The notes under the pieces were generated by a model. That model made no database searches, was not told the DNA's origin, and was given only the letters and a program-made list of their open reading frames with translations. This document shows, piece by piece, positions 6,285-60,220 of a DNA stretch of 64,000 nucleotides (position 1 is the stretch's first letter; the number at the start of each line of letters is the position of its first letter). This stretch comes from Magnolia sinica (lineage: Eukaryota > Streptophyta > Magnoliopsida > Magnoliales > Magnoliaceae), in contig NC_080577.1 in NCBI RefSeq assembly GCF_029962835.1, forward strand, positions 7,168,501 through 7,232,500, given 5' to 3'. Made by a program: the position numbers and the translations under genes.

Positions 6285-7250
6285 GGGTTGATGATTTGAT
6301 GATCCAGAATATTGACACAGGAACGACTGTGGGTAGACCATGCCAAGTACATCAATATAATTTTATCAATGATATTTTTTTCCGTGACGTCTGGAATACT
6401 AGGCTCAACGATTGTGCCCAGACCTAAAATCAAAGTTCCTTTATCAACAATTGCACAAAAGCAGATCCGCTTCGGGCTCGGGCCATGCATAACCATCACG
6501 GATCGGCTTCGAACCTGGATGTTTTGGCCTGTCAACACATGGCCCAGGCTCAGGCCTTGGATTGACTTTGCAGGCTGGGCCTAATGTTGTAGGGGAAATT
6601 TATTTTTTATTTATTATATTAAAAATAAAAATAAAAAATAAATAAATAAATAAATAAAAACAACTGCGGATCCGAGCTTGCTGTTGGGTTTGGCGCCGAT
6701 TTTGAACTGTTCGGCCAAGGTCTGATGGGCCAGGCTTTTTAAAAATTTTGATTTTGCTAGGTACGAGCCCAGCCCACTACACCCCATCGCATTAGATGGG
6801 CATCAAGTCGAGTCAGACTGAGTTAGGGCTGACCCAACTCGATCCAGTTTTGAAATAAACCTGACCTGAACTCGACCCGACTCGATACCAAGTCCAGTAT
6901 ACCCAGCCCAATTCAAGTCCGGGGGATATGGCTTTGACTAATCTAGACCGAGTCTAACCCAATCACAAGTATCAAGTCAGGTCAGGTGTGGCGGGCATCC
7001 ATAGGCTGAAATCACAGCTCAAACACTATTTGCACATGCCGGAATTGCAGCATCTTCATCTGTTACACGGCATTTCAAAACTGAAATGTTAAATTTGATT
7101 TTATTTTTTTTATATGTATGAGTCGTATTTCGGATCAAGTTGAGTCATTACCAAGTCGAGTTAAGTTACTGGGTGACTGGAACTTGACTTGATTTGAGTT
7201 TCGATCAAAATCCGGGCCAAGCCCAACCCCAGCCCGCCGGTTGACAGCCC
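6285..7250. repeat. Composite repeat block A (second copy at 37.4-38.4 kb)
   Basis: This block matches 37383-38340 in the same order: TTTGATGATCCAGA, GACTGTGGGTAGACCATGCC, CCGTGACGTCTGGAATACTA, then CATGCATAACCATCACGGAT, then a TAGATGGGCATCAAGTCGAG hAT-type left end at 6793. The order of two element types is conserved, so the combination was copied as a unit. The right end differs: here it runs into CGGTTGACAGCCC rather than the hAT right terminus. Confidence 0.6.
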
Positions 7251-7363: not shown

Positions 7364-7479
7364 CGGGCACACTACCAGCCCACACAAGGGGATGTGAAGC
7401 AGCCAATTCAGAAAGGGTTGTCGGGCACACTATCAGCCCACACAAGGGGAAGTGAAGCAGCCAATTCAAAAAGGGTTGT
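7364..7479. repeat. 58-bp tandem duplication
   Basis: Two units, 7364-7421 and 7422-7479, each beginning CGGGCACACTA and sharing GTGAAGCAGCCAATTCA. They differ at only a few bases, so the duplication is recent relative to the surrounding relics. The sequence just after it (7485-7595) resembles 25780-25900. Confidence 0.8.
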
Positions 7480-7734
7480 TGGACGACCATGACTGTGGAT
7501 GATGTCCAATGTGCCCAGCTAAGCAGTACTCTTGAGAGATGGCATTTGCGAAGTAAAACCAATGGTTACATAGGTGGGCTTGGGCTTACAAAAACCCATG
7601 GATTTCCTGTACAATAGCCCATGGATTTCCTCCCGTCAGATACGCTCCACCACTAACTCAAGGACCCAGTTGGGTACTACCCTGACGAAGACCTAGCTAG
7701 AGACGGACGGTCCTGTCAGGGGATCTGTGGAGCC

Positions 7735-10309: not shown

Positions 10310-10354
10310 TTATGGATAGACCTCAATAATGGACCGCACACCAAGGATGGGTGT
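10310..10354 (-). pseudogene. O-methyltransferase, C-terminal end of the last exon (distal piece)
   Basis: Read on the minus strand, this short piece gives PILGVRSIIEVYP and a stop codon at 10312-10310. That is the usual C-terminus of plant type-1 O-methyltransferases. It continues, in frame, the exon piece at 21864-22126. The two are separated by the 11.5-kb Tat retrotransposon, which inserted between the ACA codon and the following proline codon. Four of the five bases of the expected duplication match (GGTGT at 10350-10354, AGTGT at 21864-21868). Removing the element and one copy of the duplication restores the frame. Confidence 0.85.
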
Positions 10355-11142
10355 TGTTGATGCAAATATCTGGTCGTCCCTCGGTATACCTTTGGGTACC
10401 TGCACAAGAAGAAGACAAAGGAGACCCTGGCTAGAGCAGGAGACCCTCCGATGTTAAAGTCAGGCTAGGAATCTGGGTCTTATTGTATTGAGGGAGTTCA
10501 GGAGAGAGTATTTTGCGTACATTTCATCCTTGGAGTCTCTCCTATTTATAAGAGGAGAAGGATCCCACCATATGGGGATTCTTTCCTGATATCTTGGAGA
10601 TTTGATTTAGATGGTATTTTGCTTATGGATACTTCCCGATCCCGAGATTTTCGAGATCGGGGATCCTTCTACAAAATTCTCGGGACGGTGTTTAAGATTA
10701 CACCGTCTCTCCCTTGCTTAACTCGGTCTCAATAGATCCATAATCTCGACTGGCTTATATAGGAGACTTTTTGCCTACTATCGGATGAAACTGGGTCGGT
10801 TCGGGGCCGATATTTTCCTTCTATCCGATAGCTGATACTACAACCAACCATACATGGGTTGTTTTTATAGTCGGTTAGGCGGCTTTCTGATTTAGGACCT
10901 TTAACAGGTCTTTTTAGACGTTGCTGCCTCATTAACTGCGTCAGCTTGATGCGTCCTATACCTGTCTAAGGCTCTCGACTCTCAATTTCGGTCGGGATTC
11001 ATTTCCTACAAATCCGAACGAGTCTCTCCTTGGCTTTATCATGCTCGATCTAAACTATAGGCTCGGATCCTTCGGTCGGTTTTAGTAAAGTTGGTCCATT
11101 CCATAACCGAGTCTCCGGACTTGTCATATTTTTTACCCAACA
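10355..11142 (-). repeat. 3' LTR of the Tat element
   Basis: 788 bp. In plus-strand reading it starts TGTTGATGCAAATATC and ends CCCAACA. It pairs with 21085-21863. Most differences between the two are transitions, plus small indels near 10515, 10665 and 10845. Confidence 0.95.
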
Positions 11143-11160
11143 GTAAGCCCCCTACTCCTT
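11143..11160 (-). other. Polypurine tract of the Tat element
   Basis: Read on the minus strand this is a purine-rich stretch, AAGGAGTAGGGGGCTTAC, directly against the 3' LTR. This is the expected place for priming of plus-strand DNA synthesis. Confidence 0.75.
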
Positions 11161-11420
11161 GTGTCAGTTACACCGACACTAAGGAGTACTGTATTGCAAA
11201 CCGAGGTTATGATGGGATATTTATTGCTTCTTGTGTCGTTCTTGACGTACGACGGATCGTTACTCGAGGTTGCACGAGCGAACAATCGTCGAATCGTTTC
11301 GTCCGCTTATGAACGTCGGACACGTGACGAAGGCGTTACTTATGTCAATCAGCGTGCGCCATGCGTCGGGCAGGAGAGTCGAAACAAGCGTCAATTTGAT
11401 TCCTCCTTAAATGCTGCTGC

Positions 11421-11440
11421 CACGTGGCTCGGCTATAAAA
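11421..11440 (+). promoter_or_regulatory. G-box and TATA box of the antisense accessory gene
   Basis: CACGTG (11421-11426) is a perfect G-box, and TATAAAA (11434-11440) follows 7 bp later, reading plus. Both are inside the minus-strand retrotransposon but outside its LTR. They sit about 190 bp upstream of the ATG at 11630, with a pyrimidine-rich leader between. G-boxes are bound by plant bZIP/bHLH factors (known). That this copy is active is inference. Confidence 0.65.
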
Positions 11441-11629
11441 GGAAGAGCGAGATCGACTTTAGCAATTTCGTCTGCACTATTCATTTTTCTCTCATATTCT
11501 CCCTCCTTAGCTGTATTTGCGGTTTGTCTTTCTTCTCCGTCTTTGCCTTCTTCTCTCCTCAACTGTGTGCTTATCGTCCTTACGGTGAGTCTTATCTTTC
11601 CCCCATTTTCTTTTCGACATTTAGTGACT

Positions 11630-14600
11630 ATGTATCCTTCAAATCCCCAAGGGGAGATTTCTAGTGATGAGGGCGAAACGAAGCATTTTTGGAATGTTTC
11701 GGAATCGCCTTCCTTATTGACGGAGATGGCGATGAGTGCCAATGAGGCTTTCCAGCTCTCTGCCATGATGTCCAGTAGGACCCCAGCGGAACGCCCCATC
11801 CCGGAGGACCCCTCTATCTTGAGACATGCCCCGGGCAGGCCCACCTCCTTTTTCCCAGGGGATGACTTAGAGGAAGAATTAGGAACTTCTTAATCCGCTC
11901 TTCCTACGAGACCGATGAGGGCCGAGTTTAGGGGAACCACTAAGTTGGTCCCCCTACGGAGATCGGTTCGATTTGCTGAGTCGACAGCCGAAGAAGGAGA
12001 GGCTGCCGAGAGAGAGGAGGTCGAAGACGAACAAAAGGGGCCAGTTCCCTCAGTTTTGACTGAGATGGACTTAAATAAGATTCGAATAGGGTATCATGTC
12101 CCTGACTCAGTAATTCTTCAACTTTCACTTCCGAATGAGTTGCCTGACCATCCCCCTCTTGGGATGGTCGCAATTTTTCAAGTTGTCATGCAATGTGGCT
12201 TACATCTTCCCCTACAGCCCATTGTTCTGGATTTTCTTTCCCGACTCAGGATTGCTCCTGGGCAGATTGTCCCGAATGTGTGGAGGAACTTGTTTGGATG
12301 TGCAGTGTTGTGGGCCGAGACTGAGCAGCCCCCACTAACTGTGGACGAGTTCCTCTATCTATACCAAGTTCGGCCAAATACTTCGCAGCCTGGCTAGTAT
12401 TTTTTGAGTGCTTGGCGAAACAAGGGTAGTTCTTTGATAACCGACCCTCCTATCTCTAACAAGCATTGGAGAGAGAGGTGGTTCTGGGCATGCGGTCGCT
12501 AGGAAACTGCCGAGCCTGGGTTATTCAAATCCCTCCTTCCCCGGGTGTTCTCTAAAGCAGGTGACTCGGCACGCCTTTTTCCTTGTCTCGTTTTGCTAAC
12601 CTCCTATTGAGTCTAACTGAACATCTTCTGCAGATATCTCTAAGAGAAAGCTGAAGCTAGCAACCAACGCTTTAGCTCAAATCAGAGACTTGTGGAAGTT
12701 GAGCCCGGAAGACAGGTCTTGGAAGTCCCTTTTACAGCCGGAGCATCTTCTCCTCTCGGGCCTGGACTCGTCCGTGACAGGTAACTTTAAATTATTCAGG
12801 CACATTCTTCTTGAGTTTTTCTGATTCTGTGTTTTGTCTGACACAGAAATGGCCGAAGGTCGACCCCTCTTGAGGTCGTCGAAGTTAAAAGCTCCCCCTA
12901 GGTCAGTCCTTTTGTTGGAGCCTCGACTTCCGAAGAAGGCTAAGACTGCTCCCTCGATCTCGGAGCCTTCCGTCCTCGTCGCCGCCCCCTCGGACGTCCC
13001 ACCCTTCGTCGATCTTTCTGACCCCGAAGAGAGGGCGGAGGACGTTCCTGCAGAGTCCCGAGCGACTCTCGAGCCAACACAGGTCGCTGAACGAGTCTCG
13101 GGACGTAGAGAGGAGCAGAGAGGGGAGAGTTCAAGGGAGGAGTCGGCTCCGCAGGAGCAATCCTCCTTCCGTCGGGCCGTGACAGATATGGTGCCTTAGG
13201 CTGTTTCGACAGGGAGCGAAAGGGAATTCGCTTCCATCTTCGAAGCTCCTGGGAGTCGGATACTCTCCCATGCTGCAAAGGTCATGATTCAGGTGTGGTT
13301 TCTAATTTTGTTCTCTAGCTCCTTATCTCTTTCAGCTTTAATCGGACTTAGTAAAAAAAAATTGTGCAACTCCCTACTGAGGGCCAGCGTAGACCTGACC
13401 AAGGCTGAGAAGGCTCAGAAAAATGTGGCGGACGTCGAAGCAGCTCAGAGATGGGCAGCAAAGGTAGAAGCCCAACTTGAGATAGTGATGAGTATCGAAT
13501 ATCGCATATCAGACCCAGTAATTTCCTGATTTTACATACATGATAATGTTTAATGCTAGATTTTACTCGTGTTTTTGTTACAGGATGAAATCAGGAGTGT
13601 GTATTGAAAGATGATGTTAAAAACATGGATTTAGCACTCCAAAATTACCAGAGCACGGGATAGATTCCAGAAAACCAATAGTGAAGATTTTACACGCCTG
13701 GGATTTGAGGAAAGCAAGCCAAAGGGGCCCGAAGGACGTCCAGAATGCAAGATCACATGGTTTCTACCATCCGATCAACTCGAAACTTCATACATGTGAT
13801 GGGGGCCATAAATTAACCGTACATATTAAATTTCAGCCATTGAGGATCTCGGGAAGTGGTCCAACGGACAGATCAGCCCATTAATCTTCACTTTGGGGCC
13901 CACCTGATATTTGGAACTGCCTCAAACTTAGTTTTGGACATGGGAAAGGCATTGAGAACCAGGGGATTCCAGATCTGGAGCAAGGGAGAGAAGAAAGAAG
14001 AGAGAGAGAGATTGTTTGGTTTGACGTTTTTTTTATGAATTTTATTTAATATTTTTTATGGATTTTATGGGTCACTAATCTCTCAGCTAGGGCTGAGATG
14101 AAGCCCCTAATTTGATTAGCTCTTGTATTGGATTTACTTTGAATTTCAATTAATTTGTTTCTTTCTTTAAGTGGGCTTTATGGGTTTAAATTCTATACTT
14201 CTCCATCTATGAACTTGAACAAAGTATATATATGGATGTTGTTTGGATGCTTATTATAGGTGCTTGTGTCTGATCAAGAACAGGTTTCCTATAGAGGAAG
14301 AAACAGGATGCTTTAATGAATTGTACATCCCTTATGCCCGACCAAGGATATGGGATATGTCATTCATGGCATTGCTTAAAGGAATTAGACAGTCTGTATG
14401 CCCGATTAAGGACACAGATTGTGCTTTCTCTATTTAAGTGGTATCAATTTAGATCAAGGTGAATCAACAGACAAAACAAGGGTTAGGATGATTAGGGGTG
14501 GATTCGAAAGTCCTAGTGCTCTCTTTCTGATTGAATTTTCTTCCCTGTTCTTAATTGTTTTTTTTCCCTAAAATTGTGCTTAGTAGTTCATTCCATTATC

Positions 14601-15204
14601 TGTTGGATTAGTTAAGGAGAGTCATAGATTTGAATTGTGACGACCAGTCCTCGTGGGAACGATCTCGTAATACATACCGTATCTGCATCTGATTCGTATA
14701 CTTGCGAGTTTAAATATCATTTAAATCGTGTTGGTTTAAATAAAACATCAGATAGCCTCTACTAGGGTCAGCTATTTGACTGGCGAGTTGAGCTTGGCTC
14801 AGAAGGTGACTGAAGACGCTAGAGCCGAATGTGCTCGGATGGCTCAGCTGCTGAAAGGGGCCACTGATGAGAGTCGGCAACTTCGCATGGCTCGTGACAC
14901 CTCCGAAGATAAGCTAATCCGGCTGAAGGCCGATACCAAAGCGGCGCTCGAGGTGGCCAAGAAAGAGGCGGGAGAGAAGGCCGTAAAAGACTTCCTTGAA
15001 TCTCGAGAGTTCGAGGACGAGAGAGACCTCCTATATGCGAGCGGGTACCGAACTTGCATTGAAGGGGTGAAGCAATTTTTCCCGACCTTGACCTCTCAAA
15101 TTTTGAAGATGGGCCTCCCGAGGATCCAGCGGCTGAGCCTGACGACGTTGCGGTTGGTGCCGGAGCCGAGCCTGAAGCGACTCAGGCTCCAGAGTTCATT
15201 CTGA
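11630..15204 (+). pseudogene. Antisense accessory gene of the Tat element (gypsy-type Transposase_28-like protein)
   Basis: A plus-strand, apparently spliced gene inside the minus-strand element. Exon 1 is about 11630-12560, with the stretch GLHLPLQPIVLDFLSRL followed by IAPGQIVPNVWRNLFG. I recognise this as the plant 'putative gypsy type transposon' domain (PF04195-like). Exon 2 is 12634-12780, exon 3 is 12847-13292, and exon 4 is 13336-13485 continuing at 14756-15204. Each boundary has GT/AG with a polypyrimidine tract. The C-terminal part is charged and likely coiled coil. Breaks: TAA at 11891-11893, TAG at 12395-12397 where tryptophan is expected, another TAG near 12500, TAG at 13197, and the solo LTR at 13486-14750. 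Function unknown. It converges on the integrase gene. Confidence 0.75.
13486..14750 (+). mobile_element. Solo LTR nested in the Tat element's antisense gene
   Basis: 1265 bp, beginning TGATG and ending CATCA (a perfect 5-bp terminal inverted repeat). It is flanked by identical GATAG (13481-13485 and 14751-14755), the 5-bp duplication of LTR retrotransposons. Near the right end it has GACCAGTCCTCGTGGGAACG, a phrase I associate with R-U5 regions of plant Ty3/gypsy LTRs, so plus orientation is likely. There is no internal coding region or second LTR. Removing it with one GATAG rejoins exon 4 of the antisense gene in frame. Confidence 0.9.
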
Positions 15205-15230
15205 ATGACCCTTGAGAGCCCTGGATCTTA

Positions 15231-15345
15231 GTTTTTGGTACCATCATTAGCTCCATTTTTTGCACTCACACCAGCTCTGCTGGGAACTTGGTTTTTGGTA
15301 CCATCATCGGCTCCATTTGTGGCACTAACACCGGCTCCGGGCAAG
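15231..15345 (+). repeat. 60-bp tandem repeat between convergent genes
   Basis: Two units, 15231-15290 and 15291-15345, both starting GTTTTTGGTACCATCAT and sharing a GCTCCATTT core. It lies between the end of the antisense gene (15204) and the end of integrase (about 15550), where transcripts of both strands should terminate. Confidence 0.75.
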
Positions 15346-15549
15346 CTCGAGAATAGCATTAACCAAAGAAGACATTCGCACGTTGTGGCCGACCTTTCTT
15401 TTACCTCTTTCTAGTCTAACAAATGTATTGTCAAAGCAAGATGTAACTCGATGTAACATGCTGATAAATGAATATGATGTTTCATTTTATTCATTTTGAC
15501 TCAGTTTACATGCCTATTTTTTTCGAGTCTTTTTCATTGCTTTGTCGTG

Positions 15550-16690
15550 CGAATTTTAGGAGTAATAAGTTTTCAGATGCTTGGCATTCCACGGGTGAGA
15601 CAGTAGTCGTCCGATCAGGTCTTCCAACTGATATGTCCCTGGTCGAATGGTGGCTGAGACGATATAGGGCCCTTCCCAGTTGGGTCCCAACATACCTGAG
15701 CAGACTTCCTTAGTATTGAGGAACGTTTTTCAGAGAACCATGTCTCTCATTCGAAAACGTCTGACCTTGACTCGGGCGTTATAGAACCGAGTAACCTACT
15801 GTTGCCGAGCTCTTTCTCTTTGTTTGTCCACAAGATCAAGTCCCAGTGTTAGGAGTTGTTCATTATCCTCTTCGTCAAATGAACTGATTTGGGCCGAAGG
15901 CAACCCAATCTCGACCGGAGTGACGGCTTCCGAGCCATAAGCAAGGGAAAAAGGAGTTTCGCCCGTAGCCGTTCGGGCTGTAGTTCGATATGCCCACAAT
16001 ATTTTCAGGAGTTCTTCAGCCCACGTTCCCTTGGCTCGGTTGAGCTTGGTCCGGAGGTGGTGTTTGATGATCTTATTGACTGCCTCAACCTACTCGTTTG
16101 TTTGAGGATGGTGAGGCGATGAATATACATTTCTGATCCCGAGGTTGCCACACATTTCTCAAAAGCTGTTATTGTCGAACTACTTTCCGTTGTCGGTAAC
16201 AATGGTGCGGGGTATTCCGAACCGACGGACAATGTTCTTTCACACAAAATCAATGATCTTTTGTTCGGTTATTCTCGCAAATGGCTCAGCCTCGGCCCAT
16301 TTCGTGAAGTAATCTACGGCCACGACAGCGAACTTAGTCTGGCCTTTTCCGACTGGGAGTAGCCCTATGATGTCGATTCCCCATTGTGCGAAGGGCTAAG
16401 GACCGGTCATGGGTGTCAATGCTTCTGGAGGTCGTCTAAGGAAAACTGTGAATCTCTGACATCTATCGCATTCCGGAACGAGCTTACTAGCGTTGTATTG
16501 GATGGTCGGCCAGTAGTATCCCTGACGCAATACCTTATGCGCGAGTGACCATCCTCCTGAATGGTTTTCACAGATCCTTTCGCGGATTTTTCGTAGTACA
16601 TAGTCCGCTTCGCTGGGGTTTAGACATCGCAGCAGTGGAGTATAATAACCTTTCTTGTATAACGTTCCATTAAATATGGTATAACGGGAG
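15550..16690 (-). pseudogene. Integrase of the Tat element
   Basis: Minus-strand reading contains WAYRTTARTATGETPFSLAY and GSEAVTPVEIGLPS (15999-15796), the hallmark C-terminal half of Ty3/gypsy integrase. After one in-frame stop (15793-15795) it continues with a GPNWEGPY motif, the usual C-terminal end. The N-terminal zinc and catalytic parts lie towards 16690 and are broken by stops and frameshifts. The domain would catalyse insertion of element DNA. This copy cannot encode it intact. Confidence 0.8.
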
Positions 16691-16704
16691 GCTCGGACCT
16701 TTAA

Positions 16705-17585
16705 TCATCGGGCCTCATCGCGATTTTCAGGTAACTCACCTTTATTGAGATATCGAACGATCGAATTAATCCAAGAAAGTTCCGAGTCGATCGTATGTAT
16801 GATCGAGCTAACCGGTTCCTCGATACTCAGCTTAGCGACGTACTTGACCGGAACAGAATTGGGTGTATCATCTTCGTCGGCGACGGCGAGTTTTACTAAC
16901 AGGTCGGCTTTAGCATTCTCTGTCCGAGGGATCCGAGTAACGACACAACATTGAAAGCATTTGATCAGTTCTTTGGCTTTCTCGATATATGCTTTTAATT
17001 GTTCTTTCCGTATTTGATATACATCGGTAACTTGGTTAATAACCAGCTGAGAATCACTGAAAACATTTAGATGCCTTACGCCCAAGCTGGCCGCGAGTCG
17101 AAGGTCGAGCAACAACGCTTCGTATTCTACTGTATTGTTTGACGCTTGAAATCCAAGTCTTAAGGCATATTGCATGTAGGTTTAATTTGGAGTTTTCAGA
17201 ACTACTCCTGCCCCGCTTGCCTTAGAATTGGAGGAACCGTCGACATATAGCTTCCAGGGTATAATGGTATGGGAGAAGCAGTAGTTGATTCTTCAATGGG
17301 CTCAGTAGAATGCTCAGTCATTGGGTTGGCCTGTGGTATTACTTCAGCAATGAAATCGGCCACAGGTTGCCCTTTGATTGCTACTCTCGGCTTATATTGA
17401 ATGTCGAACTCGCTGAGTTCGATCGCCCATTTCGTAAGTTGGCCGGATACATCTGGTTTCTGTAGAATCTGACGTAGTGGGAGATCGGTCATTATGATGA
17501 TGGTATGGGCTTGGAAATATGGTCGAAGTCGGTGCAAGGAGACTACTAGAACTAAGGCCACCTTTTCCAAGAGTGGGTATCTCAT
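16705..17585 (-). pseudogene. RNase H domains of the Tat element
   Basis: Two blocks on the minus strand. 17585-17202 holds the connection and first RNase H end (SGQLTKWAIELSEFDIQYKP). 17175-16705 holds a second RNase H-like domain with the conserved words VEYEALLLDLRLA and FSDSQLVINQV. Having two RNase H domains is a known Tat-lineage trait. A stop separates the blocks. The role is removal of RNA from the RNA-DNA hybrid during reverse transcription. Confidence 0.8.
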
Positions 17586-17589
17586 CTCC

Positions 17590-18660
17590 GCTGGTAGTAG
17601 TGCTTTGCTGACGTAGTAAACCGGCAGCTATTTTTCTTCGTGCTCATGTATCAGGGCCGAGCTAACTGCTGCCTTGGACACTGCCAAGTACAGCAACAAA
17701 GCTTCTCCTGACTCGGGTTTCGATAAGATTGGGGGAGATCCAAGATACGACTTTAACTGTTGAAACGCTGCTTCACACTCTTCCGTCTAATTCAACGCTT
17801 ACCGTCCCTTCAATTGTCTGAAGAACAGGAGACATTTATCTGTAGCTCTGGACAGGAAGCGATTAAGTGCTGCTACTCGTCTAATCAGTCTTTGTATATC
17901 TTTAATCGTCTTTGAAGACTCCATGTCAAGCAGGGCTTTTATCTTTTCCGGGTTAGCTTCTATCCCTCGCTAACTGAGTAAGAAACTGAGGAACTTTCCC
18001 AAGCTTACGCCAAAGGCGCACTTACTCGGGTTCAGTTTCATTCGGAACTTATGTAAGATGAGGAACATTTCTTCTAGGTCGGCTATGTGGTTGGTCGCGC
18101 GTACACTTTTGACGAGCATGTCATCAATGTACACTTCCATCGTTCGGCCGATCTGCCGAGCAAAAAGTCTGTTTACCAATCTCTGATAAGTTACACCAGC
18201 ATTTTTCAAACCAAACAGCATCACACGGTAACAATAAAGGCCTTTGTCAGTGACAAAGTTTATTTTAGATTTATCGGACTAATGCATTACAATTTGATTA
18301 TACCCTGAATACGCATCCATGCCCTACGGTACTATCTACCAACTGGTCTATCCTTGGAAGAGGAAAGCTATCCTTCGGGCAGGCTTTATTTACGTCGGTG
18401 TAGTCGATACAGACTCGCCATTTCCCGTTAGCTTTCTTCACCAGTACGACATTTGCTACCCATTCCGGATAGTATATCTCTTATATGAATTTTGCCTTGA
18501 GGAGCTTGCTAACCTCTTCACCTATGACTGCGTATCTTTCGGGGCCGAAAGGTCGTCGCTTCTGTCGGATTGGTCGGTAGGTCGAATCGTCATTGAGTCG
18601 ATGGGTGATCACTGACAGGTCGATTCCTTGCATATCTTCATGGCTCCAAGCAAATATGTC
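17590..18660 (-). pseudogene. Reverse transcriptase of the Tat element
   Basis: On the minus strand, 18660-18310 gives the N-terminal part with NGKWRVCIDYTDVNKACPKD. 18224-17970 gives the core with MLFGLKNAGVTYQRLVN and the catalytic YIDDM at 18131-18117. Both catalytic aspartates are kept. A frameshift and stops near 18300-18230 and 17970 break the frame between and after these blocks. It lies between protease and RNase H, as in all Ty3/gypsy elements. Confidence 0.85.
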
Positions 18661-18666
18661 AGCATA

Positions 18667-19620
18667 TCATCGGAGCAGGGCTATCAAGTTATCCCTCAAG
18701 GGTGGTCGCAGAGACGAACCAACCTGCATTGTTTTGGACTTGTCTGTCTCGACCAAGGGCACTGAAACAAGATCTTCAACTGGCTGCCCTCGTTCATGCG
18801 TCTCGACCCGAGGGTCTAGCGACTCGATCGTTGATACTTCAGTCGGAGCTTTCTCGGTGGGTCTTTTTACAGCTGTCATGTAGCAACGCCTCGCATCCTG
18901 CTGATCTCTTTTGACGACTACTACTCCCAACTCAGTCGAAAATTTCATGGAGAGGTGATACGTAGATACGACGGCCTGGAGGACACTCAGAGAGGGTCGA
19001 CCGAGTATAGCGTTGTACACGGATGACTGGTCGACTATCAAGAAATCAACCATTGTTGTCGCTTGGTGCGGATGATTCCCAGCTGTGAGCGACAGTGAAA
19101 TGATCTCTTCTGGGAGTATTTGCCCCCCCGAGAATCTGACCAATGGGGTACGGACCGGTCGTAACGTCGATCGTTCAACAGTCATCCTGTCGAATGCTTG
19201 AGTGAACAACATGTCAGCCGATGACTCAGTGTCGACAAGAATGTGAAACACCCTTCGGTTTGCTATGATCAGAGTAATGACCAATGCATCATCATGTGGA
19301 TGATAGATCCCTCGGGCATCTTCATCAGTGAATGAGATACAGTACCTTTCCTTCTTCTTTTCTTTCGAAGGCCGAGCTATGATCAGAGTGTCAGACTCAG
19401 GTCGGTTGAGGCTTCTGGCGTGATTTTTCTGGGCGTTATTTGAGTCGTTGCCGCACAGGGGTCCTCTGACTATCGTCCGGATTTCTTCCGTAGGTCGGTC
19501 ATCGCTCGGTCGTTCTTCTGTTGTCCCTGTTCTCTCAACATGTTCTTTGAGCCGGCCTTCTCGGATAAGCCTTTCGATCTCCTCCTTCAAATGATAACAA
19601 TCACTTTGTACTATGACCAT
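18667..19620 (-). pseudogene. gag C-terminus and aspartic protease of the Tat element
   Basis: Open frame of 317 residues on the minus strand, the longest intact frame of the element. Residues about 7-30 (DCYHLKEEIERLIREGRLKE) are the end of gag. The aspartic protease follows with its active-site loop at residues 130-134, reading DTESS where DTGSS is usual. The glycine-to-glutamate change should abolish activity. ILGRPSL near residue 206 is a conserved protease word. Confidence 0.82.
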
Positions 19621-19654
19621 GATCGCGATGATAGTGACAGTACTTGTCCTTATT

Positions 19655-21008
19655 TCACCGGTTTGGATTACTCCGAAGCTTATTTAGCCAACTCACGAAT
19701 CTTTCACTTTTGATTTCCATCAGCACCTGTTCTCGAGGTTTGTTAAGCGAGATGTATGTAGAGAACATTCGGTTGGGTCGCTTGCCTGACCTGCGTTCAT
19801 CGCGCGCTCGCTCGTCCTTGCGCTTGTTTCCTCCAGCCGAGTTAACCTCATTTTTGGCCGACCCTTTGGCCGTGGTTTTTGCGTTCTGGACTGCCTCGCG
19901 CAAGTTCCGCGTTTCTTCGGCGTCTGCGTATTTATCTGACTGAGTCATGAACTCCACCAAAGTTTCGGGTGGATTCTTGTCTAAGGACGCCAAGAAAGGC
20001 TTGTCCCTTACACTTTACATGATGGAGTTGAGTGCTGTTTCCTCCGAATGTTTTTGAACTTGGAGCAATTCGAAGTTAAACCGTTTGATATAATCTTTCA
20101 GCAATTCTCTCTCCTTCTGGATTATGTTGTTTAGGTGTGCTAGAGGTTTCAACTTCTTCTTCCCACCAATAAAATTGGTAAGGAAGGCGTCATTAAGTCC
20201 TGTGAAGGTTCGAATGGACTTTGGTTTCAGCTGTTTAAATCAAAGTCGAGCTACGTCAGCTAATGTGAGGGAGAAGGCTCGGCACATCACGGCATTCGAG
20301 ACATCATTTAGTTCCATGTATGTTTAGAAGCATTCGATGTGCTCGGTTGGGTCGGTTTTACCCGTGAAAGGCGTAATCTGCGAAAGACGGAAGCGTTCTG
20401 GTAATCGGACCTGCATCACTTCCTCCACGAACGGGGACGCTTTTGTCTTGGGCCGATTCTGACGCAAATCGCGACCTTGCTTCACGTTTTTGATCTCCTC
20501 CTATATCTCCCTCCTGAAATCTTGGAGGTCGGCTTTCCATGGTTCGTTACTTTCGGTCATTCCCTCGATCGGAGGCCGACTTCGTCTTCGCCGATCAATT
20601 TCATGTCGAAGGTCAGTGGGGGGCAGAACGGCAGTAGCGGAATGAGTGGGGCCCGGCTCGGATGGACCTTGGGGCTCACTTTTCTGAGAGATTGTCGGTT
20701 GCGGAGCATCAGGCTTGAGATCAACAACTTGCTGTGGGGCATTAACCGTTCAAACACCCAGCGAAACTTGCTGCCGGTGTATTTGTTCCAACAGCTGTTT
20801 CATGACGTTGATATCGGATCTGAGCTCCTGTACCTCTTTATCCAGTTGCCCATTACCTTGGTTCCTGAGTGTTCCTCGTCCCAGCGGATGTCGCTGGCCG
20901 AGCAGCGGAATTCTGGCCTTGAGTCCCTCGAACAGCATTTGCATCCGACGGCTCAACAGCGGCAGCCTCATTGGGATCTTCTAGGACCGTTCTTCTAGTA
21001 ACCACCAT
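19655..21008 (-). pseudogene. gag of the Tat element
   Basis: Probable ATG at 21008-21006, 56 bp after the primer site. The first part (to about 20360) is charged, rich in Q, R and E, and broken. The retrotransposon gag domain follows (about 20340-19700) with the pattern FTGKTDPTEH, MCRAFSLTLAD and FIGGKKKLKPLAHL, interrupted by stops at expected tryptophan or glutamine codons. It ends with a basic stretch (RRSGKRPNR). Gag forms the particle that packages element RNA. Confidence 0.78.
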
Positions 21009-21063
21009 TAAAGCACATTTTTCAACCTCTGGGTAGAGCTTAGGAAACGACTTCTTATATCGT

Positions 21064-21081
21064 TTCCCACAGACGGCGCCA
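21064..21081 (-). other. Primer binding site (tRNA-Asp type)
   Basis: Minus-strand TGGCGCCGTCTGTGGGAA, starting 3 nt after the end of the 5' LTR. The TGGCGCC start complements a tRNA ending GGCGCCA, as used by Tat and Athila elements. Its position fixes the element's orientation. Confidence 0.85.
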
Positions 21082-21084
21082 AAC

Positions 21085-21863
21085 TGTTGGTGCAAATATC
21101 TGGTCGTCCCTCGGTATACCTTTGGGTACCTGCATAGGAAGAAGACAAAGGAGACCCTGGCTAGAGCAGGGGACCCTCCGATGCCAAAATCAGGCTAGGA
21201 ATCTGGGTCTTATTGTATTAAGGGAGTTCGGGAGAGTATTTTGCGTACCTTTCATCCTTGGAGTCTCTCCTATTTATAAGAGGAGGAGGATCCCACCGTA
21301 TGGGGATTCTTTCCTGATATCTTGGAGATTTGATTTAGATGGTATTTTATTTATGGATACTTCCCAATCCCGAGAATTCGGGGATCCTTCTACAAAATTC
21401 TCGGGACGGTGTTTAAAATTACACCATCTCTCCTTTGCTTGACTCGGCCTCAATACATCCGTAATCTCGGCTGGCTTACATAGGAGATTTTTTGCCTATT
21501 ATCGGATGAAACTGGGTCGGTTCAGGGCCGATGTTTTCCTTGTATCCGATAGCCGATACTACAACCAACCTACATGGGTTGTTTTTATAGTCGGTCAGGC
21601 GACTTTCTGATTTAGGACCTTTAACAGGTCTTTTTAGACGTTGCTGCCTTATTAACTGCGTCAGCTTAATGCGTCCTATACCTGTCTAAGGCTCTCGACT
21701 CTCAACTTCAGTCGGGATTCATTTCCTACAAATCCAAACGAGTCTCTCCTTTGGCTTTATCATGCTCGATCCAAACTATAGGCTCGGATCCTTCGTTCGG
21801 TTTTAGTAGAGTTGGTCCATTCCATAACCGAGTCTTCGGACTTGTCATATTTTTTTCCCAACA
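21085..21863 (-). repeat. 5' LTR of the Tat element
   Basis: 779 bp, plus-strand reading TGTTGGTGCAAATATC to CCCAACA. About 95% identical to 10355-11142 by hand count. Confidence 0.95.
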
Positions 21864-22126
21864 AGTGTAATCGTGTAGTGAGTGAAACCAGCTTCGATGA
21901 AGATCTTTCGCCATTCATGTTCGTTCCTCTCCTTCCCACCAGTGAGAGTCATCATCAATAGATCGAAGAAGACCTGTGTCTCGGTCAACTTGTAATCGCC
22001 ATTATTCATGTTCACGACCATGTCCAGTGTAATCACCTTCCCTCCCTCTTCTTTTGAAGGGATTGCTTCCTTGCATCATCTCAGTATGTTCACGCACTCT
22101 TCGTCACTCCAATTATGTAGAACCCA
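21864..22126 (-). pseudogene. Plant O-methyltransferase, last exon (proximal piece), split by the Tat element
   Basis: Minus-strand reading after a TGCAG acceptor starts WVLHNWSDEECVNIL, where the histidine is the catalytic base of type-1 plant O-methyltransferases (COMT-like, SAM-dependent). It continues with GGKVITLDMVV, LLMMTLTGGKERNEHEW and IFIEAGFTHYTIT, all family signatures including the GKER glutamate. The exon start before 'WVLH' matches the usual intron site of this family. One in-frame TGA lies where arginine is expected (ILR*CKEAIP). The exon then meets the retrotransposon end and resumes at 10354. I found no N-terminal (SAM-binding) exon in the window, so it is a remnant or its first exon is far to the right. 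Substrate cannot be deduced. Confidence 0.88.
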
Positions 22127-23910: not shown

Positions 23911-24370
23911 CTCCTTTGAACCGTTCTTACAACTCAGGAGCTCGAGGAGCGTCGGCTCTTGTCTTGGCCCGATACGTATATACACCAGCTAATCCGCCAC
24001 GCCACCGTAAATGGAGCAGCCTTATTAGTGGGTCAACCTTTTGTACGGATTGGATCATGTAACTTATTTGTGGAAGAGCATGGTGAGGTAAGCTTATACA
24101 GTACCGGATGCTATTTTCAAGAATTGATGACTTATATGGGGTGATGACTGATTGGAGTAACAAGAAAATTACTCCACAGCATTGAGGTGATCCCGCAAAG
24201 CCAATCCTCTCTTCATCGTGTTTTGACTGCTTGTACTCAAGTGGGCCATACCATCTAAAATCATGCGAAGACACCGTTAAAATATATAAAAGCACTTGGT
24301 GGGGCCCACCTGAGTTTTGAATGCTGCTGAAACTTGGTCCGAACCCTCATTCAAGTTGGACACACATCCG

Positions 24371-24848
24371 TCCCATGAGGTCGAGCTGTGTGGGCTCCAC
24401 CATGATGCGTTTCAAACATCTACCCCGTTAGTCAGATGCACCATTCCATCGTGGGCCTAGGTCTCAAAAATCAAGTCAATCCATGACTTGTGTGGGCCAC
24501 ACCACATACAGAAGTGGAGAGGGGCCATGCACCATTAAAACATTCATAATCAGTTCTTTGGGCCCACTGAGATGTGGTTTGCAAATCCGGCCCATCCATT
24601 ATGTGTGTTCCACTTGGATGAGGGTTCAAACCAAGTTTCAGTAGCAGTAAAAACTCAAGTGGGCGCCACCAAGTGCTTTTATATGTTTTAATGGTGTCTT
24701 CACATGATTTTAGATGCTATGGCCCACCTGAGTTCTGTATACGGCTGATTTTTAGGATATCCCATAATTTAGAGGGGACCCATCAAATGCACGGTGTTGA
24801 TGGTCGACACGCATCATGATGGGGCCCACACAGCTCAACCTCATGGGA
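24371..24848. mobile_element. MITE, TCCCATGAGGTCGAGCTGTG family
   Basis: The left end TCCCATGAGGTCGAGCTGTG is mirrored by CACACAGCTCAACCTCATGGGA at the right end (one mismatch in the arm). Inward, CACCATGATGCG mirrors CGCATCATGATG. A second, partial copy lies at about 59520-59875 and a left-arm fragment at about 37290-37385. Non-coding. Confidence 0.7.
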
Positions 24849-25330: not shown

Positions 25331-25960
25331 AGTTCAGACACAGTTTATTGCAAATGCCTTCCTACACAGTCAAACACCTTTTGAATTCTAAATTTGCTCA
25401 AAATCACGTTGCCTGACAACCCCTTGCATCAGAGAGTCCAATTGACGAATCTGAACAGATCATCAGGTGGAACAAACATTTCAGGGGCCACCACGTGAAA
25501 ATCAAGCCAATCAAACAATTCTAAACACTCAACCAATGTCTTATGAATTGGTCAGACAGGATGACTTATAAAAATAGGCCAAATCTATAATTTAAAACCT
25601 CCATTTTTGGAACACAGGAGACTGAATATTCCAAATCTCCTTTTTTCCATTCCTTCCTCATAAGCCGGAATCTGATCATTGTTGATTTTTTATATGGTAA
25701 AGAACCCTGAGTGGACCATCAAACGCCCACATGGGCGGTGCTAGTGGGAGCGATCGAAAGTGCGGCCACCAGTTCAGAATGCGTCATGGATGGCGATGGT
25801 TGTGGACTATGTCCAGTATGCCAAGTTGAACGGTACACTTGAGGGACATAGAATTAATGAAGTTAAACACATGGCTCCATACATAGGCTTGGGCTTTCAA
25901 CACCTCATAGGTCTCATCTCCTTGCATGAGCACCCTCACTGATTCACGTTTCAAAGAACA
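25331..25960. other. No gene; weak promoter-like sequence and repeat fragment
   Basis: A TTATAAAAATAGG sequence near 25568 could be a TATA box reading plus, but no coding exon follows it. The part 25780-25900 resembles 7485-7595 and is therefore a repeat. Nothing else is recognisable. Confidence 0.35.
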
Positions 25961-29540: not shown

Positions 29541-29915
29541 TCAAGCTTTCCTCAATCCCATCTGCCTGATGTGAACCTGAAATAGATCTCTAGCTATAGG
29601 TTTCGTCATGGGATTAGCCATCATCTCCTTAGTAGGAATGTAGCTAAGGGCGACCTTCTTATCTCTCACTTGATCACGGACGTAATTATACTTGATCTCA
29701 ATGTGCTTAGATTTCTGGTGGTGTTTAGGGTCCTTTGCCAAGTCAATAACAGAAGTATTGTCTATCTTCAGTAATATAGGCTGATGAACACTCGGTACAA
29801 CACCCAGACTCAATAGAAATCTGTGAACCCATACACACTCTTGAACTGCATCACAACATGCAATGTACTCGGCCTCCATAGATGAGATAGCTCCTCCTCC
29901 CAGTAAAAATATCAT
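29541..29915 (-). pseudogene. Ty1/copia RNase H C-terminus (minus strand)
   Basis: Minus-strand reading shows SMEAEYIACCDAVQECVW, LLKIDNTSVIDLAKDPKHHQ, KHIEIKYNYVRDQV and ends MGLRKA plus stop, the standard end of copia pol. Just before SMEAEYIA the usual 'SWKSKKQ..' segment is missing after FLLGGGAIS, an internal deletion of about 11 codons. Sequence upstream of this point (29915-29978) does not match copia pol, so the element is truncated here. Confidence 0.85.
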
Positions 29916-29977
29916 TTGCCCCTTTTTTTGTAGTGAAAGGTTGCTGCCCACACCAAACGAGCCGAAGACAAACTCTT

Positions 29978-30840
29978 GTGTCGAGGACACATTTTGAACG
30001 CACTATTTGACCACTTGTACGATCTGTACCAACAGACGTCATCAACAAATGAGATCTGGGCTGCTTTAGAGTTCAAATATAAGGCTGAAGAAGAAGGTAC
30101 CAACAAATTTCTCATTGCTAGGTATTTTGACTTCAGCATGGTAGATAATAAACTGCTACTACCTCAAATATAAGAACTACAGCTAATAGTAAACAAAATC
30201 AAAATGATAAAAATTGATCTTCCCGAATCATTCCAAATCGGGACTATAATCACTAAATTGTCTCCGATGTGGAAAGACTATAGAAATAAATTGCTACATA
30301 AAACTGAGGACTACACACCGGAACAAATCTAGAAACACCTTAGAATTGAGGAAGAACCCATAACCACGACAGAAAGAATGATAACGGGAATGTCTCGTCC
30401 AAGGTACATGCAGTAGAGAACACTAAATAACAAGAATCCCGAGAAGGACGATTCCCTAAAACCCAATAAAGGAAAATTCAAGAAAAATGCCCAAAAGAAG
30501 AACGGAAAGTTCAAAGGCCCATGCCATGTCTGTGGAAAAATCGGGCACTATGCTCGAGTATGCCGATATCGCAAATCTAAAAAAGAGGCAAGTGTAGTAG
30601 AAGAAGGCGATATCGTAGCTATGATCACTGAGGTGAATACCATCCAAGGCAAAGTTTCAGGGTGGTGGTATGATACTGCCGCTACTGTACATGTGTGCTA
30701 CGACAAATCAGCCTTCAAAACCTATGAGGAATTGACCGATGGTCAAGAAGTCCAAATGGGTAATGAAGTCCGATCGAAGGTCATCAGCAAAGGGATTGTC
30801 GAATTGAATATTCACCTCTGAAAAGAAAGTGATTCTAACT
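29978..30840 (+). pseudogene. copia gag and start of protease
   Basis: Begins CRGHILNALFDHLYDLYQQ (gag, UBN2-type). The zinc knuckle C-X2-C-X4-H-X4-C at 30522-30563 (CHVCGKIGHYARVC) is intact. The protease start follows at about 30663, WWYDTAATVHVCYD, where the active-site loop has DTAAT instead of DTGAT. In-frame stops at 30171, 30329 and 30411, then a frame change near 30815. Gag binds element RNA through the knuckle. Confidence 0.85.
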
Positions 30841-30912
30841 AATGTACTGCACGTCCCAGACATGAGGTGAAACTTAGTTTCTGGGGATCTTCTGGGAAAA
30901 CCAGACATATGG

Positions 30913-31790
30913 GTGGTGTATGAGTCAGGTAAACTGATTCTGTCCAAAAATGAGAATTTTATCGGAAAGGGATATGCTTGTAACGGAATGGTTAAGTTTT
31001 TTCTGAATGAAAGTAGCACTTCTGCGTGTATGGTTGAATCCGCTGGACTGTGGCATGATAAATTAGCTCATATAGGGTATAGTACCTTGAAGTTCATGGC
31101 TAAGAATGGTTTAATCTCATATACAAATAATGAAACCGGAAAATGTGAAGTGTGCATAAGATCAAAAATGATAAGAGAAACTTTTTCCAAGTGTTGAAAG
31201 ATCATCTCAAGTATTGGATCTTGTGCACAGTGATTTCGTGAGTTAAACGGCATTCTTACTCGTGAAAGTAAACGGTACTTCATAACCTTTATAGATGATT
31301 GCTCTAGGTATGTGTATGTGTACATATTAAAGAGCAAAGATGAAGCATTAAACATGTTTAAAATATATAAACCAGAAGTAGAGAATCAACTGAATAAGAA
31401 GATAAAAATTCTCTGTAGCGAAAGAGGAGGAGAATACTTCTCCAATGAATTCGATAACTTCTGTGAAGAACATGGACTGATACATCAATGTACAGCGCCA
31501 TACACACCTCAACAAAATGGAATAGCTGAAAGAAAAAATAGAACATTAGTAGAAATGGTCAACTCAATGCTGATAAGAGCAAAGTTGACACTTAGTCTAT
31601 AGGGTGAGGCACTGCTTACAACATGCCATATAATAAACAAAATTCTATCTAAAAAATATAAAATATCTCCATATGAAACATGTAGAGGTAGAAAACCTAA
31701 CATAGGATATCTAAAAGTATGGGGGTGTCTTGCGTATTGCAGAACCCCTGATCCAGAAAGAACTAAATTATGACCAAGAGCTATTAAGTG
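30913..31790 (+). pseudogene. copia integrase
   Basis: The zinc-binding part shows WHDKLAHIG and CEVC (HHCC pattern, about 31050-31160). The catalytic core has ITFIDDCSRYVYVY with the first aspartate, then CSERGGEYF where the second catalytic aspartate is replaced by glutamate, then PQQNGIAERKNRTL with the catalytic glutamate. Stops at 31195, 31600 (expected tryptophan) and about 31771 break it. Confidence 0.85.
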
Positions 31791-32105
31791 CGCCTTCGTA
31801 GGGTATGCACAAAATAGTAAAGCTTATAGACTTCTAGACATAGAGTCTAATACAATAATAGAATCAAGAGACGTTGAGTTCTTTGAGAACTTACTATCCT
31901 TCGAGTCAAAGGATAATAAAATCCAAACTCCTAATAGAGAATCATATAATACAGCTCTACAGATAGTGAAAGCTCTTGTTGAACCTCATAGGAGTCAAAG
32001 GACAAGAATAGAGAAGAGTCTAGGAAATGACTATATAGACTCACAACGTATCATTTTCCATCTTATAGAAGGAGATAGAGAAAATGTTATAAAAAATAAC
32101 CTATA

Positions 32106-32888
32106 GTGATGACTATGAAAGATGATTCTAAAACATATAAAGAGGCCGTATCCTCTAGAGACTCAGCTTTCTGGAAAGAAGTTATAAACGATGAAATAGA
32201 ATCTATACTATCAAATCAAATATGGGAACCAGTTAACTTACCTCCAGGTTCTAGACCCATAGGTTGTAAGTGGGTATTTACGAAGAAATATCACACTGAT
32301 TGAACTATCCAAACCTTTAAAGCTTGACTAGTAACTAAGGGTTTTAGACAAAAAGAATGGATAAATTACTTTGACACATACTCTCCTTTAGCTAGGATAA
32401 CATCCATTAGGATATTATTTGCGCTAGCTTCCATACATCATTTTTATATCCACCAAATGGATGTAGAGACCGCATTCCTGAATGGTGACCTCAACGAGGA
32501 GGTATACATGGAACAACCTTAAGGATTCGTTCTACCAGGAAATGAAAACAAAGTATGTAGATTAGTCAAATCTTTGTATGGATTAAAACAAGCACCAAAA
32601 CAGTGGCATGAGAAGTTTGATTCCAAAATACTATCTCATGGTTTCATGCACAATGTAGCTGACAAATGCATATATTTTAAAGTAGATGGTAACTACATCG
32701 TTATTATTTGTTTATATGTTGATAACATGTTAATAATAAGTAATAAAATAGAAGGTGTGACTAAAACAAAGAGGTTTCTATCTTCCGCATTTAAAATAAA
32801 GGATCTTGGACAAGTTGATACCATTCTTGGTATCAAAGTTAAAAAATATTGTGGCGGGTTATGCTTTGTGTCAATCTCATTATATTGA
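32106..32888 (+). pseudogene. copia reverse transcriptase
   Basis: Shows NQIWEPVNLPPGSRPIGCKW, the DVETAFLNGDLNEEVYMEQP block, SLYGLKQAPKQWHEKFD and the catalytic box at 32715-32729, which reads YVDNM instead of YVDDM. Loss of the second aspartate (a G-to-A change) removes a metal ligand. Stops fall at 32301, 32325 and about 32521. Confidence 0.88.
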
Positions 32889-37382: not shown

Positions 37383-37918
37383 TTGATGATCCAGATTGTT
37401 GATACAGGACCGACTGTGGGTAGACCATGCCACGTAAATCAATATAATTTGATCAATGTAATTTTTCCGTGACGTCTGGAATACTAGACTCAACGATTGT
37501 GCCCAGACCTAAAATCAAAGCTCCTTTATCAATCGGGCTGGATCTGGGCCGTGTATAAGAGCCTGTAACCCTGCTCAGCCTGTTAACAGTTACAAGGGCA
37601 TTTTTGTCATATTTCTTGAACAGCCTGATCTTGCACAAAAGTGGATCCGCTTCGGGCCGGGCCATGCATAACCATCACGGATCAGCTTCGGACCTGGATG
37701 TTTTGGCCCGTCAACACATGGGCCAGGCTCGGGTCTTGGATTGACTTTGCAGGCTGGGCCTAATGTTGTAGGGGAAAATAAAAAACACTGCCGATCCGAG
37801 CTTGCTGCTGGGTTCGGCTCCGATTTTGAATCGTTCGGGCGAACGTCTGATGGGCCAGGCCTATTAAAATTTTGATTTTACTTGGCCCGAACCTGGCCCA
37901 CTACACCCCTCCGATCAT
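37383..37918. repeat. Composite repeat block B (partner of 6285-7250)
   Basis: Same sequence as the first half of block A, with an extra segment of about 90 bp (about 37535-37630) not present in A. Followed directly by a hAT MITE, as in block A. Confidence 0.6.
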
Positions 37919-38447
37919 TAGAGGCTGGGGCATCAAGTCGAGCCGGACCGAGTTAGGGCTGACTCAACTCGATCCAGTTTTGAAATAGACCTGACCAGAA
38001 CTCGACTCTACTCAGTAACGAGTCTAGCATACCCAACCCGATCCAAGTCCGGTGTGCACTTGACTAATCTAGACTGAGTGACCCAATGACAAGCATCGAA
38101 TCAGGTTAGGTGTGGCAGGCATTCGCAGGCTGAATCACATCTCCAAACCTATTTACACATGCCGGAATTGCAGCATCTTTACCGATTACATACATGGCAT
38201 CTTAAATCTGATTTTGGCTTTTATTTTTATTTTATTTTTTTATTTTTTTAATGTATGAGTCAGGGAGTTATTACCAAGTCAGATTTTGGATCAAGTTGAG
38301 TCAAGCTACCGGGTGACTCGAACTTGGCTTGATTTGAGTTTGGATGGGACGAAAGGCTACTCAGTTAGATGAACTCACCCACTCAGTTGGTGTCAAGTCG
38401 GGTCTAAACAAGTTTGCCAAGTCTAAACAGTACGGTGCCCAGCTCTA
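37919..38447. mobile_element. hAT-type MITE, TAGAGCTGGGCA family
   Basis: TAGAGGCTGGGGCATC at the left and GGTGCCCAGCTCTA at the right. Flanks are CCGATCAT (37911-37918) and CCGACCAT (38448-38455), 7 of 8 identical. 529 bp without foreign insert, so probably closest to the family's basic length. Confidence 0.8.
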
Positions 38448-51389: not shown

Positions 51390-52190
51390 GAGGATGCTTG
51401 TTATATAGAGAACATGGTCTGTATATTGTCGCCGTAGAAATTCTCCTTGCAGTTGAAATTTGTGTGGAAGCACAACTAACCGCAGTTGATCATCCAAAGA
51501 TGATGTCGCACTGATGGCATGAACTTCAATCACTCCATGCTGTTCAACATAGCTGTTCTTAAGCAACTTAGCTGACTGTTTCTTCTTTTTTCCTGCAATT
51601 TTTGCCTCACAGAGGACATGACGAGTTGACCATCTACGCACTTGGAGCACTTGAAGGAACAATCTGTAGACATCGGCAGATCATCGGGGTCACATTCCAA
51701 GGCAGGTGCTTCTGTTTTAATAGACATTGGATGATTAATTGGGAGTCCCCTTAAATAATAATAAGACCCCAGATGTTTTGGAATTGCCAGGGAGATCCTA
51801 TTTGTAGACCCAAACATTCTGACATGGTAATAGAGCAGTTTCATAATTTCTTGGAACAATGTCCCCATGCATTTCCCGTGAGTGCTCTGAACGAGTCCAC
51901 CTGCACTGCCCCCTCTGTTATGTGGATTATCGGTGCCATCAAAATTAAGTGTGAAGGCGCCAGACTCTGGCTGCTCCCAGCCCAGAGGAATACAGATGAC
52001 CGGGTGTAACTGGATGTTTGTTTGGAGTCATTCTGTCCACTGTGTTAAAGGCCACCGTGTTGGCTACTGAGTTACAAAAGTCTTTTACTGCTCTGGTGAT
52101 TTGTTGAATTGTTGCTAGGTCTGGCATTCTGCGAACCTCTCAATCCATATGTGCCACAAGTTGGAGTAAAAAAATGGCCTCCAAATGGTG
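51390..52190 (-). mobile_element. LINE C-terminal (RNase H) remnant
   Basis: The minus strand reads LWHIWIERF near 52165, then WEQPESGAFTLNFDGTDNPH and GGSAGGLVQSTHGKCMG (about 52010-51850), the start of the RNase H-like domain of L1 LINEs. A late piece with LRLVVLPHKFQLQGEF follows. Several frame changes. It starts just beyond the OPA3-like gene's poly(A) signal. Confidence 0.65.
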
Positions 52191-57290: not shown

Positions 57291-57299
57291 TCAGAGCGT

Positions 57300-57650
57300 T
57301 TGTGGCCAGATAGTGTCCTGCAGCGCCTGGACTCCATTCGAGGCCTTTGATCTCGACGAACCTCCAAAGCCTGCACCGCACCTTTGAAATCGTAGAACCT
57401 TGGAGGTTTCCCAACCTCCAGACCCTGCCTTGAACTCGTGAATGGTTTTTACCTCATCGTGTTCGCCTGAGACAACACTGTTTCGAGCACGTTTGCAGAT
57501 CGTTGCAAGCTGTGTGCGGCCCCAGACGAAGACGAGTTGAAGGAAGACCCGAAGACGAGTCTGAAGGAAGAGAGTGAGTGGTCTGCCAATCTCTAATGAG
57601 AGGTTCGATGATGTCAAAGGCGCGTTTGGAGGTTCCCAAAATTCTGTGTG
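57300..57650. repeat. Diverged duplicate, copy 2
   Basis: Counterpart of 55795-56200. It contains a local repeat GAAGACGAGT(T/C)GAAGGAAGA (about 57527-57570). Minus-strand frames run through it, but no protein family is apparent. Confidence 0.5.
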
Positions 57651-57799
57651 AATGCAAAACAATAGCATATAAAAGCGAATGAGGATGCAAAGGAGTAAAA
57701 AATTAGAGAGTAATAGGAAAAGTGGAATCAAGAAACATCTATTTACTCGACTATTCAAAAAGAAAATGGTAAAAATGAAATTTTTTTTTTAAAAAAATG

Positions 57800-59075: not shown

Positions 59076-60220
59076 TAAAGGTGGGCATCTAGTCGAGTCA
59101 GACCGGATTAGGCCCAACTCAACTTGGTCCGAAACTTTCAATAGCCTAAGCCGAACTCGATCTGATCCGAGACCGAGTCCGGATCCTCTGACTCGATCCG
59201 ATTTGTCGCATTGCTGTCCTGATCCGAATCGAGTCCGATTTGGTTAGGGAAACCGAGTCAGATAGGATTGGTACAATTCAGATCGAATCCTTTATTTCAA
59301 TGGTAGACGTCCAACCCCAACTACCTTTTGCAGTGTGGTCCACTTGATCTTTAGATCTGTCTTATTTTTCGACTCAAGCCTTAAGACGAGCCCGCCAAAT
59401 GGATGGATGATTTGGATATAACACATACCTCGTTATGGGACGCACAGAACTTGCTGACGTCAATGCACCAGCTGGCATGGTGCGTGGTACACCTGTCAGT
59501 CCACTTACATACAAACGTTGAGAGGGGTTATAGGTTACCCTCCCATTAAAACATTCATGAACATTTTTTGGGCCCACCAAGGTGTGGTTCACAAATCCAA
59601 ACCATCCATTATGTGTGTCCCACTTGGATGAGGGTTCAGACCAAGTTTCATATGCATCCAAAATTTAGGTGAGCCCCACCAAGTGCTTTTATATGTTTAG
59701 GAATGTCTTCATGATTTTAGATGGTATGGCCCACCTGAGTTCCATATACAGCTGATTTTTGGAATATCCTATAATTTAAAGGGGACCCATCAAATGCATG
59801 GTGTTGATGTTCGACACAGATCATGGTGAGGCCCACACAGCTCGACCTCATGGGAAGTTCCCATGAGTTAACCTTTTCCCTGTCCTTGAGCACAGAGGAG
59901 GAGGGATTAGCTACTTCCCCTGCCACCGGCCAATGGCTGATAGTTGATGCTCCGCGGACCCCACCATGATGTCTTTATTTCATTCATGTCGTCCATCTAT
60001 TTTTCTAAATCATTTTATGGTATTAAACAAAAAATGAGGTATATCCCAATCTCAAGTGGACAACATTATAGCAAATAGTGTTGAATAAACATTGTACAGA
60101 TCGGATCAGTCCGAATTGACCACTGATCCGAACACTATCCGATGTACGAACGGATCTGAGTGGTTCTACTCGATCTGCACCGATCCAGGCCTTTGGTTCG
60201 GTTGATTCTACCCGGCTCTA
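59076..60220. mobile_element. hAT-type MITE of the TAGAGCTGGGCA family with nested insertions
   Basis: The left end TAAAGGTGGGCATCTAGTCG and right end GATTCTACCCGGCTCTA are imperfectly inverse. Identical flanks GTCATAGC lie at 59068-59075 and 60221-60228. Between about 59295 and 60085 it holds fragments of three other families: W-family arms, the GTGGTACACC element, and a partial TCCCATGAGG MITE at about 59520-59875. Confidence 0.8.

Follow-up and report, generated by a model that had tools for sequence, protein, structure and literature searches.

Remains of an O-methyltransferase gene in Magnolia sinica with a last exon split by a putative Tat-clade LTR retrotransposon

In a stretch of 64,000 nucleotides of the Magnolia sinica genome (NC_080577.1, positions 7,168,501 to 7,232,500; hereafter the window), two pieces resembling the end of a plant O-methyltransferase (OMT) lie on the minus strand on either side of a long LTR retrotransposon. 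This raises the question whether both pieces belong to one exon that was split by the element, and whether it was this insertion that put an end to the gene. The original prediction had answered the first part in the affirmative, naming a Tat-type element, and had implied for the second part that the exon was damaged by the element alone.

We found that the last exon of an OMT gene is interrupted by an 11,509-bp LTR retrotransposon (10355-21863), which has the same orientation as the gene. If the element and one copy of the target duplication are removed, positions 22126-21869 (minus strand) join positions 10354-10310 (minus strand) in frame, just as had been predicted, giving an exon of 303 nt, i.e. 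100 codons and the final stop, with a single frame over the junction. The 5′ part of this exon (21869-22126, minus strand) provides 86 codons, including an in-frame TGA at 22078-22076, and the last 14 codons (TPILGVRSIIEVYP) together with the stop codon are located at 10310-10354 on the same strand. The insertion point of the element is therefore within the coding sequence, 14 codons ahead of the stop. Ahead of 22126 the bases end in CAG, but by eye they are not rich in pyrimidines, which is why a splice site at this position is not convincing.

The proposed search of the joined exon against known OMTs supported its identity. With the internal stop written as X, the 100 residues of the exon matched the Pfam family Methyltransf_2 with an E-value of 3.4e-19, a match that covers the C-terminal part of the family only (exon residues 1-81 against profile positions 135-209 of 210). 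In the PDB, 62 distinct sequences were matched at E up to 0.001, the top match being PoOMT1 (9waz; E 3.6e-38, 132.8 bits), with an alignment reaching the last residue of PoOMT1; a literature search on PoOMT1 found no paper. Judged by sequence, the gene appears to be of the isoflavone 7-/4'-OMT and norcoclaurine 6-OMT type, i.e. to have encoded a class II OMT acting on small molecules.

The 87 residues ahead of the insertion alone scored 109.7 bits against PoOMT1 (E 4.4e-31) compared with the 132.8 bits of the joined exon, from which it follows that the 13 residues beyond the element contribute 23 bits. The C-terminal piece by itself is short and only weakly matched (hmmsearch E 0.53), as would be expected if the apparent split were due to misassembly or if so short a peptide had matched by chance. 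However, among the 60,615 stop-free 14-mers in the six frames of the window, the 14-residue tail ranked first by a wide margin (score 50.4; runner-up 25.2), and it was the sole 14-mer with a stop directly after it among the six listed. The five OMT C-termini used for this scoring were drawn from the matches of the joined query, which makes it a strong but not a blind test. In addition, the tail is located exactly at the duplication, on the right strand and in the right frame, with its stop in place, and the LTR pair is complete and bordered by target bases that are almost identical. We therefore give artefact or coincidence next to no probability. From the tail match, combined with where the tail lies, its strand and frame and the stop that follows it, we conclude that the split of the OMT exon is real and beyond chance.

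The 5-bp target site duplication that had been predicted is indeed present at both flanks, although one of its five bases is mismatched (left copy GGTGT at 10350-10354, right copy AGTGT at 21864-21868). A 5-bp flank match as good as this has a chance probability of 0.016, so that the join is not made to depend on the duplication, and the single mismatch counts against the explanation of the locus that we prefer. By eye, the junction residue is a proline if read from the left copy and a leucine if read from the right one. Since a proline occupies this position in five of the five OMT C-termini used in the tail scoring, the single-base change probably sits in the right copy.

The 5′ LTR (21085-21863, 779 bp) and the 3′ LTR (10355-11142, 788 bp), both on the minus strand, have TG..CA ends, which together with the target duplication is what characterizes an LTR retrotransposon. 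Over 778 aligned sites, 43 differences separate the two LTRs (37 transitions, 6 transversions; K2P 0.058), and their alignment contains 11 gap columns, which by eye correspond to four gaps. This divergence of 5.5% is in agreement with the approximately 5% stated before. CG or CHG sites, which account for 136 of the 778 sites, hold 13 of the 37 transitions, and the distance without this context is 0.047 over 642 sites. Based on three substitution rates (1.3e-8 to 1.5e-9 per site and year), the LTR distance corresponds to an insertion age of about 2 to 19 million years. The insertion is thus datable, as had been claimed, but only within a range of about tenfold.

Behind the LTR at 21085 follows a minus-strand stretch starting with TGGCGCC at 21081, which by eye looks like a primer binding site, as TGGCGCC is a typical beginning of such sites; the element is therefore read on the minus strand. 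A purine-rich stretch is also visible by eye ahead of the 3′ LTR on this strand. Ten of the 39 open reading frames (ORFs) of the element, one of them on the plus strand near the 3′ LTR, were scanned with Pfam at E up to 0.01, resulting in five with and five without a match. On the minus strand, four pol ORFs had a match and contain, in this order, a reverse transcriptase fragment (RVT_1, 17970-18278, E 1.2e-15), a first RNase H (RT_RNaseH, 17202-17627, E 2e-13), a second RNase H (RVT_3, 16705-17181, E 4.3e-17), which we take to be the archaeal-type domain, and an integrase zinc-binding fragment (H2C2, 16396-16704, E 6.4e-5; 23.4 bits at a curated cut-off of 25.5), the second RNase H thus being located between the first one and the integrase. 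The fifth match is a Transposase_28-like ORF antisense to pol (11894-12397, plus strand, E 1.9e-5; 25.2 bits at a cut-off of 26.2). Gag, protease and integrase core had no Pfam match among the scanned ORFs, and four unmatched ORFs rescanned at E up to 10 revealed no relevant family; positions 15796-16089 resemble an integrase core by eye only. If pol ends with this integrase-like ORF, about 4,653 bp separate its end (15796) from the 3′ LTR. This copy of the element is itself decayed, as indicated by the shortness of the four pol ORFs with a match and by their distribution over two frames.

According to PMC6317226, two RNase H domains are a feature unique to Tat among plant LTR elements, and in Ogre and Retand the second one is placed between the first RNase H and the integrase; the extra RNase H of Tat is also described in PMC5348765. 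The two RNase H domains hence support the assignment of the element to the Tat clade that the original prediction had made. Within Tat, domains and layout, rather than a tree, suggest that the element probably belongs to the Retand subclade, with which it shares a second RNase H ahead of the integrase zinc-binding fragment and, between pol and the 3′ LTR, a region of about 4.6 kb that carries a Transposase_28-like ORF in antisense. Transposase_28 is given for 23% of Retand elements in PMC6317226 and for 97% of clusters in PMC11963269, which also reports 2,933-6,566 bp for the region that measures about 4,653 bp here. In contrast to Retand, the element has short ORFs in two frames, gag, protease and integrase core without a Pfam match, and Transposase_28 and H2C2 matches slightly under the cut-off. 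Between pol and the 3′ LTR, a 60-bp unit is present in about two copies (15223-15337). PMC11963269 describes tandem repeat arrays at this place in about half of its recent Retand elements; two copies hardly count as such an array.

Other repeats are found in the window as well. Fragments of a Ty1/copia element at 30417-32888 (plus strand) comprise Pol_BBD, an integrase core and RVT_2 in separate ORFs, with a sub-threshold zinc knuckle beside Pol_BBD. A dispersed repeat has copies at 6479-6922 and 37658-38052, which are 86% and 95% identical in two stretches and perhaps represent a mid-size non-autonomous element.

The original prediction had suggested looking for the first exon beyond 22126. 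A fragment of a first exon encoding a dimerisation domain was indeed found there (25693-25927, minus strand), but it is truncated, its frame is broken, and the middle part of the OMT was not found in the window. Positions 25927-25787 matched the N-termini of all four query OMTs (tblastn, best E 2e-10), and 25963-25787 matched the Pfam family Dimerisation (PF08100) with E 1.5e-7 and 31.5 bits at a cut-off of 25.6, covering profile positions 4-40 of 93. The best PDB match of the piece is again PoOMT1 (E 3.2e-15). With at least two frame changes, one after 25787 and one before 25725, the fragment is only weakly matched after 25787; weak OMT-like pieces end at about 25693, the last of them scoring just 2.3 bits in hmmsearch. 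For OMT residues 87-256 or so, which include the SAM-binding motif, tblastn of four OMTs against the window gave chance-level matches only (E 0.58 or worse), and hmmsearch --max over the 2,851 ORFs of the window gave 4.4 bits or less. From this we conclude that the locus holds the remains of an OMT gene and not a working OMT. Six long minus-strand ORFs outside the element (1158-1664, 23927-24346, 29541-30002, 51530-52027, 57291-57788 and 60587-60982) were without a match in Pfam at E up to 1 and thus show no sign of being OMT exons. Repeats are present in the 3.5 kb that separate the exon pieces, among them a MITE-like inverted repeat (24235-24733) with 133-nt arms that are 89% complementary; DNA related to it is present at 59564-59867.

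The piece of the first exon is collinear with the last exon and lies on the same strand. Based on their order, strand, spacing and common best relative PoOMT1, we infer that they belong to one gene. They could also stem from different truncated copies, as there is no sequence that bridges the middle.

A second OMT relic, on the same strand as the split gene, is located at 7389-7599. It corresponds to the N-terminal part of an OMT alone and shows a stop, frame changes and, at 7364-7479, a tandem duplication of 58 bp. In tblastn it matched OMT N-termini (7599-7389, best E 4e-6), and at the DNA level it is 69.7% identical to the first-exon piece over 152 bp (E 1e-11). This is thus a decayed tandem OMT locus, in which at least two copies with the same direction have left remains.

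The in-frame TGA corresponds to codon 17 of the joined exon, which means that the last exon is not intact even without the element. Together with the frame changes in the first exon, it leaves the gene without a continuous OMT reading frame. The implied claim that the element alone damaged the exon is therefore not supported, in view of the codon-17 TGA, the broken first exon and the middle that was not found. Like plant class II (COMT-like) OMTs, the locus has an N-terminal dimerisation domain, Methyltransf_2 and a C-terminal end like ...IEVYP, but it deviates from them by the stop in the last exon, the frame-broken first exon, the SAM-binding middle that was not found and the element inside the last exon. 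Similarly, the 5-bp duplication, the position of the element in coding sequence and the continuous frame of the empty site resemble known cases of exon inactivation by LTR retrotransposons; here, however, the host gene carries independent disabling damage, which may have come before or after the element.

Two orders of events deserve consideration. That the element inserted into an OMT copy that was already a pseudogene, and thus into dead DNA in which no selection acts on insertions, we regard as about an even chance. The truncated, out-of-frame first exon fits this order, as does the second relic on the same strand, which is likewise N-terminal only and broken. Less easily reconciled with it is the last exon, which has one stop, no frame change in 100 codons and OMT-like residues kept to the final codon. 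The opposite order, in which the gene was intact and working at the time of insertion, was killed by the element and acquired all its other damage by decay afterwards, has a serious prospect of being correct, though short of even. At the neutral rate derived from the LTRs, the probability that the last exon acquired one or more new stops is 0.19-0.23, 0.78 indels would be expected in this exon (none was seen), and the probability of at least two indels in the first-exon piece since the insertion is 0.12; this model rests on one LTR pair and 303 plus 235 bp and leaves out the missing middle. The small damage is accordingly compatible with decay since the insertion, but an earlier death of the gene fits these counts equally, and the roughly 170 codons absent after the first-exon piece as well as the decayed neighbouring copy suggest an older, dying locus.

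Taken together, we consider it highly probable that the window contains at least two OMT gene remains on one strand, and that one of these copies (25927 to 10310, minus strand) was split by a Tat, probably Retand, element and is now a pseudogene. A Tat (probably Retand) Ty3/gypsy element integrated in sense orientation 14 codons before the OMT stop, duplicating 5 bp. Reading straight from the OMT into the LTR, the frame ends after ITLVGKKI; right after the insertion, the end of the OMT would thus have been replaced by this LTR-encoded peptide, with the loss of the last strand of the enzyme, which we presume from the fold to be formed by the last residues. Judged by the fold, this loss alone would probably have disabled the OMT. 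The middle of the gene would have been deleted rather than moved outside the window, and the copy is presumably now without a product. It is very improbable that an OMT with the LTR-encoded C-terminus (...ITLVGKKI, stop) was in use for a time, or that the insertion removed an enzyme the lack of which altered the metabolites of the plant, with the other damage occurring later.

Plant genomes commonly contain insertions in dead or dying copies of duplicated gene families, and the split OMT is presumably a dead gene of this ordinary kind, accompanied by what is left of a second copy. A literature search combining OMT, pseudogene, LTR retrotransposon insertion and tandem led to PMC7004133, which in its accessible part names OMT solely in another context. 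The finding would gain greater weight only if the loss of the OMT were tied to a metabolite difference between relatives, and nothing here does so. The earlier point that automatic annotation would miss or mis-join the pieces is a fair one, but minor for a pseudogene. Domain-based annotation would take the split OMT pieces for unrelated scraps, and the locus provides a worked example of how a duplicated OMT gene decays, with an exon split by a later element.
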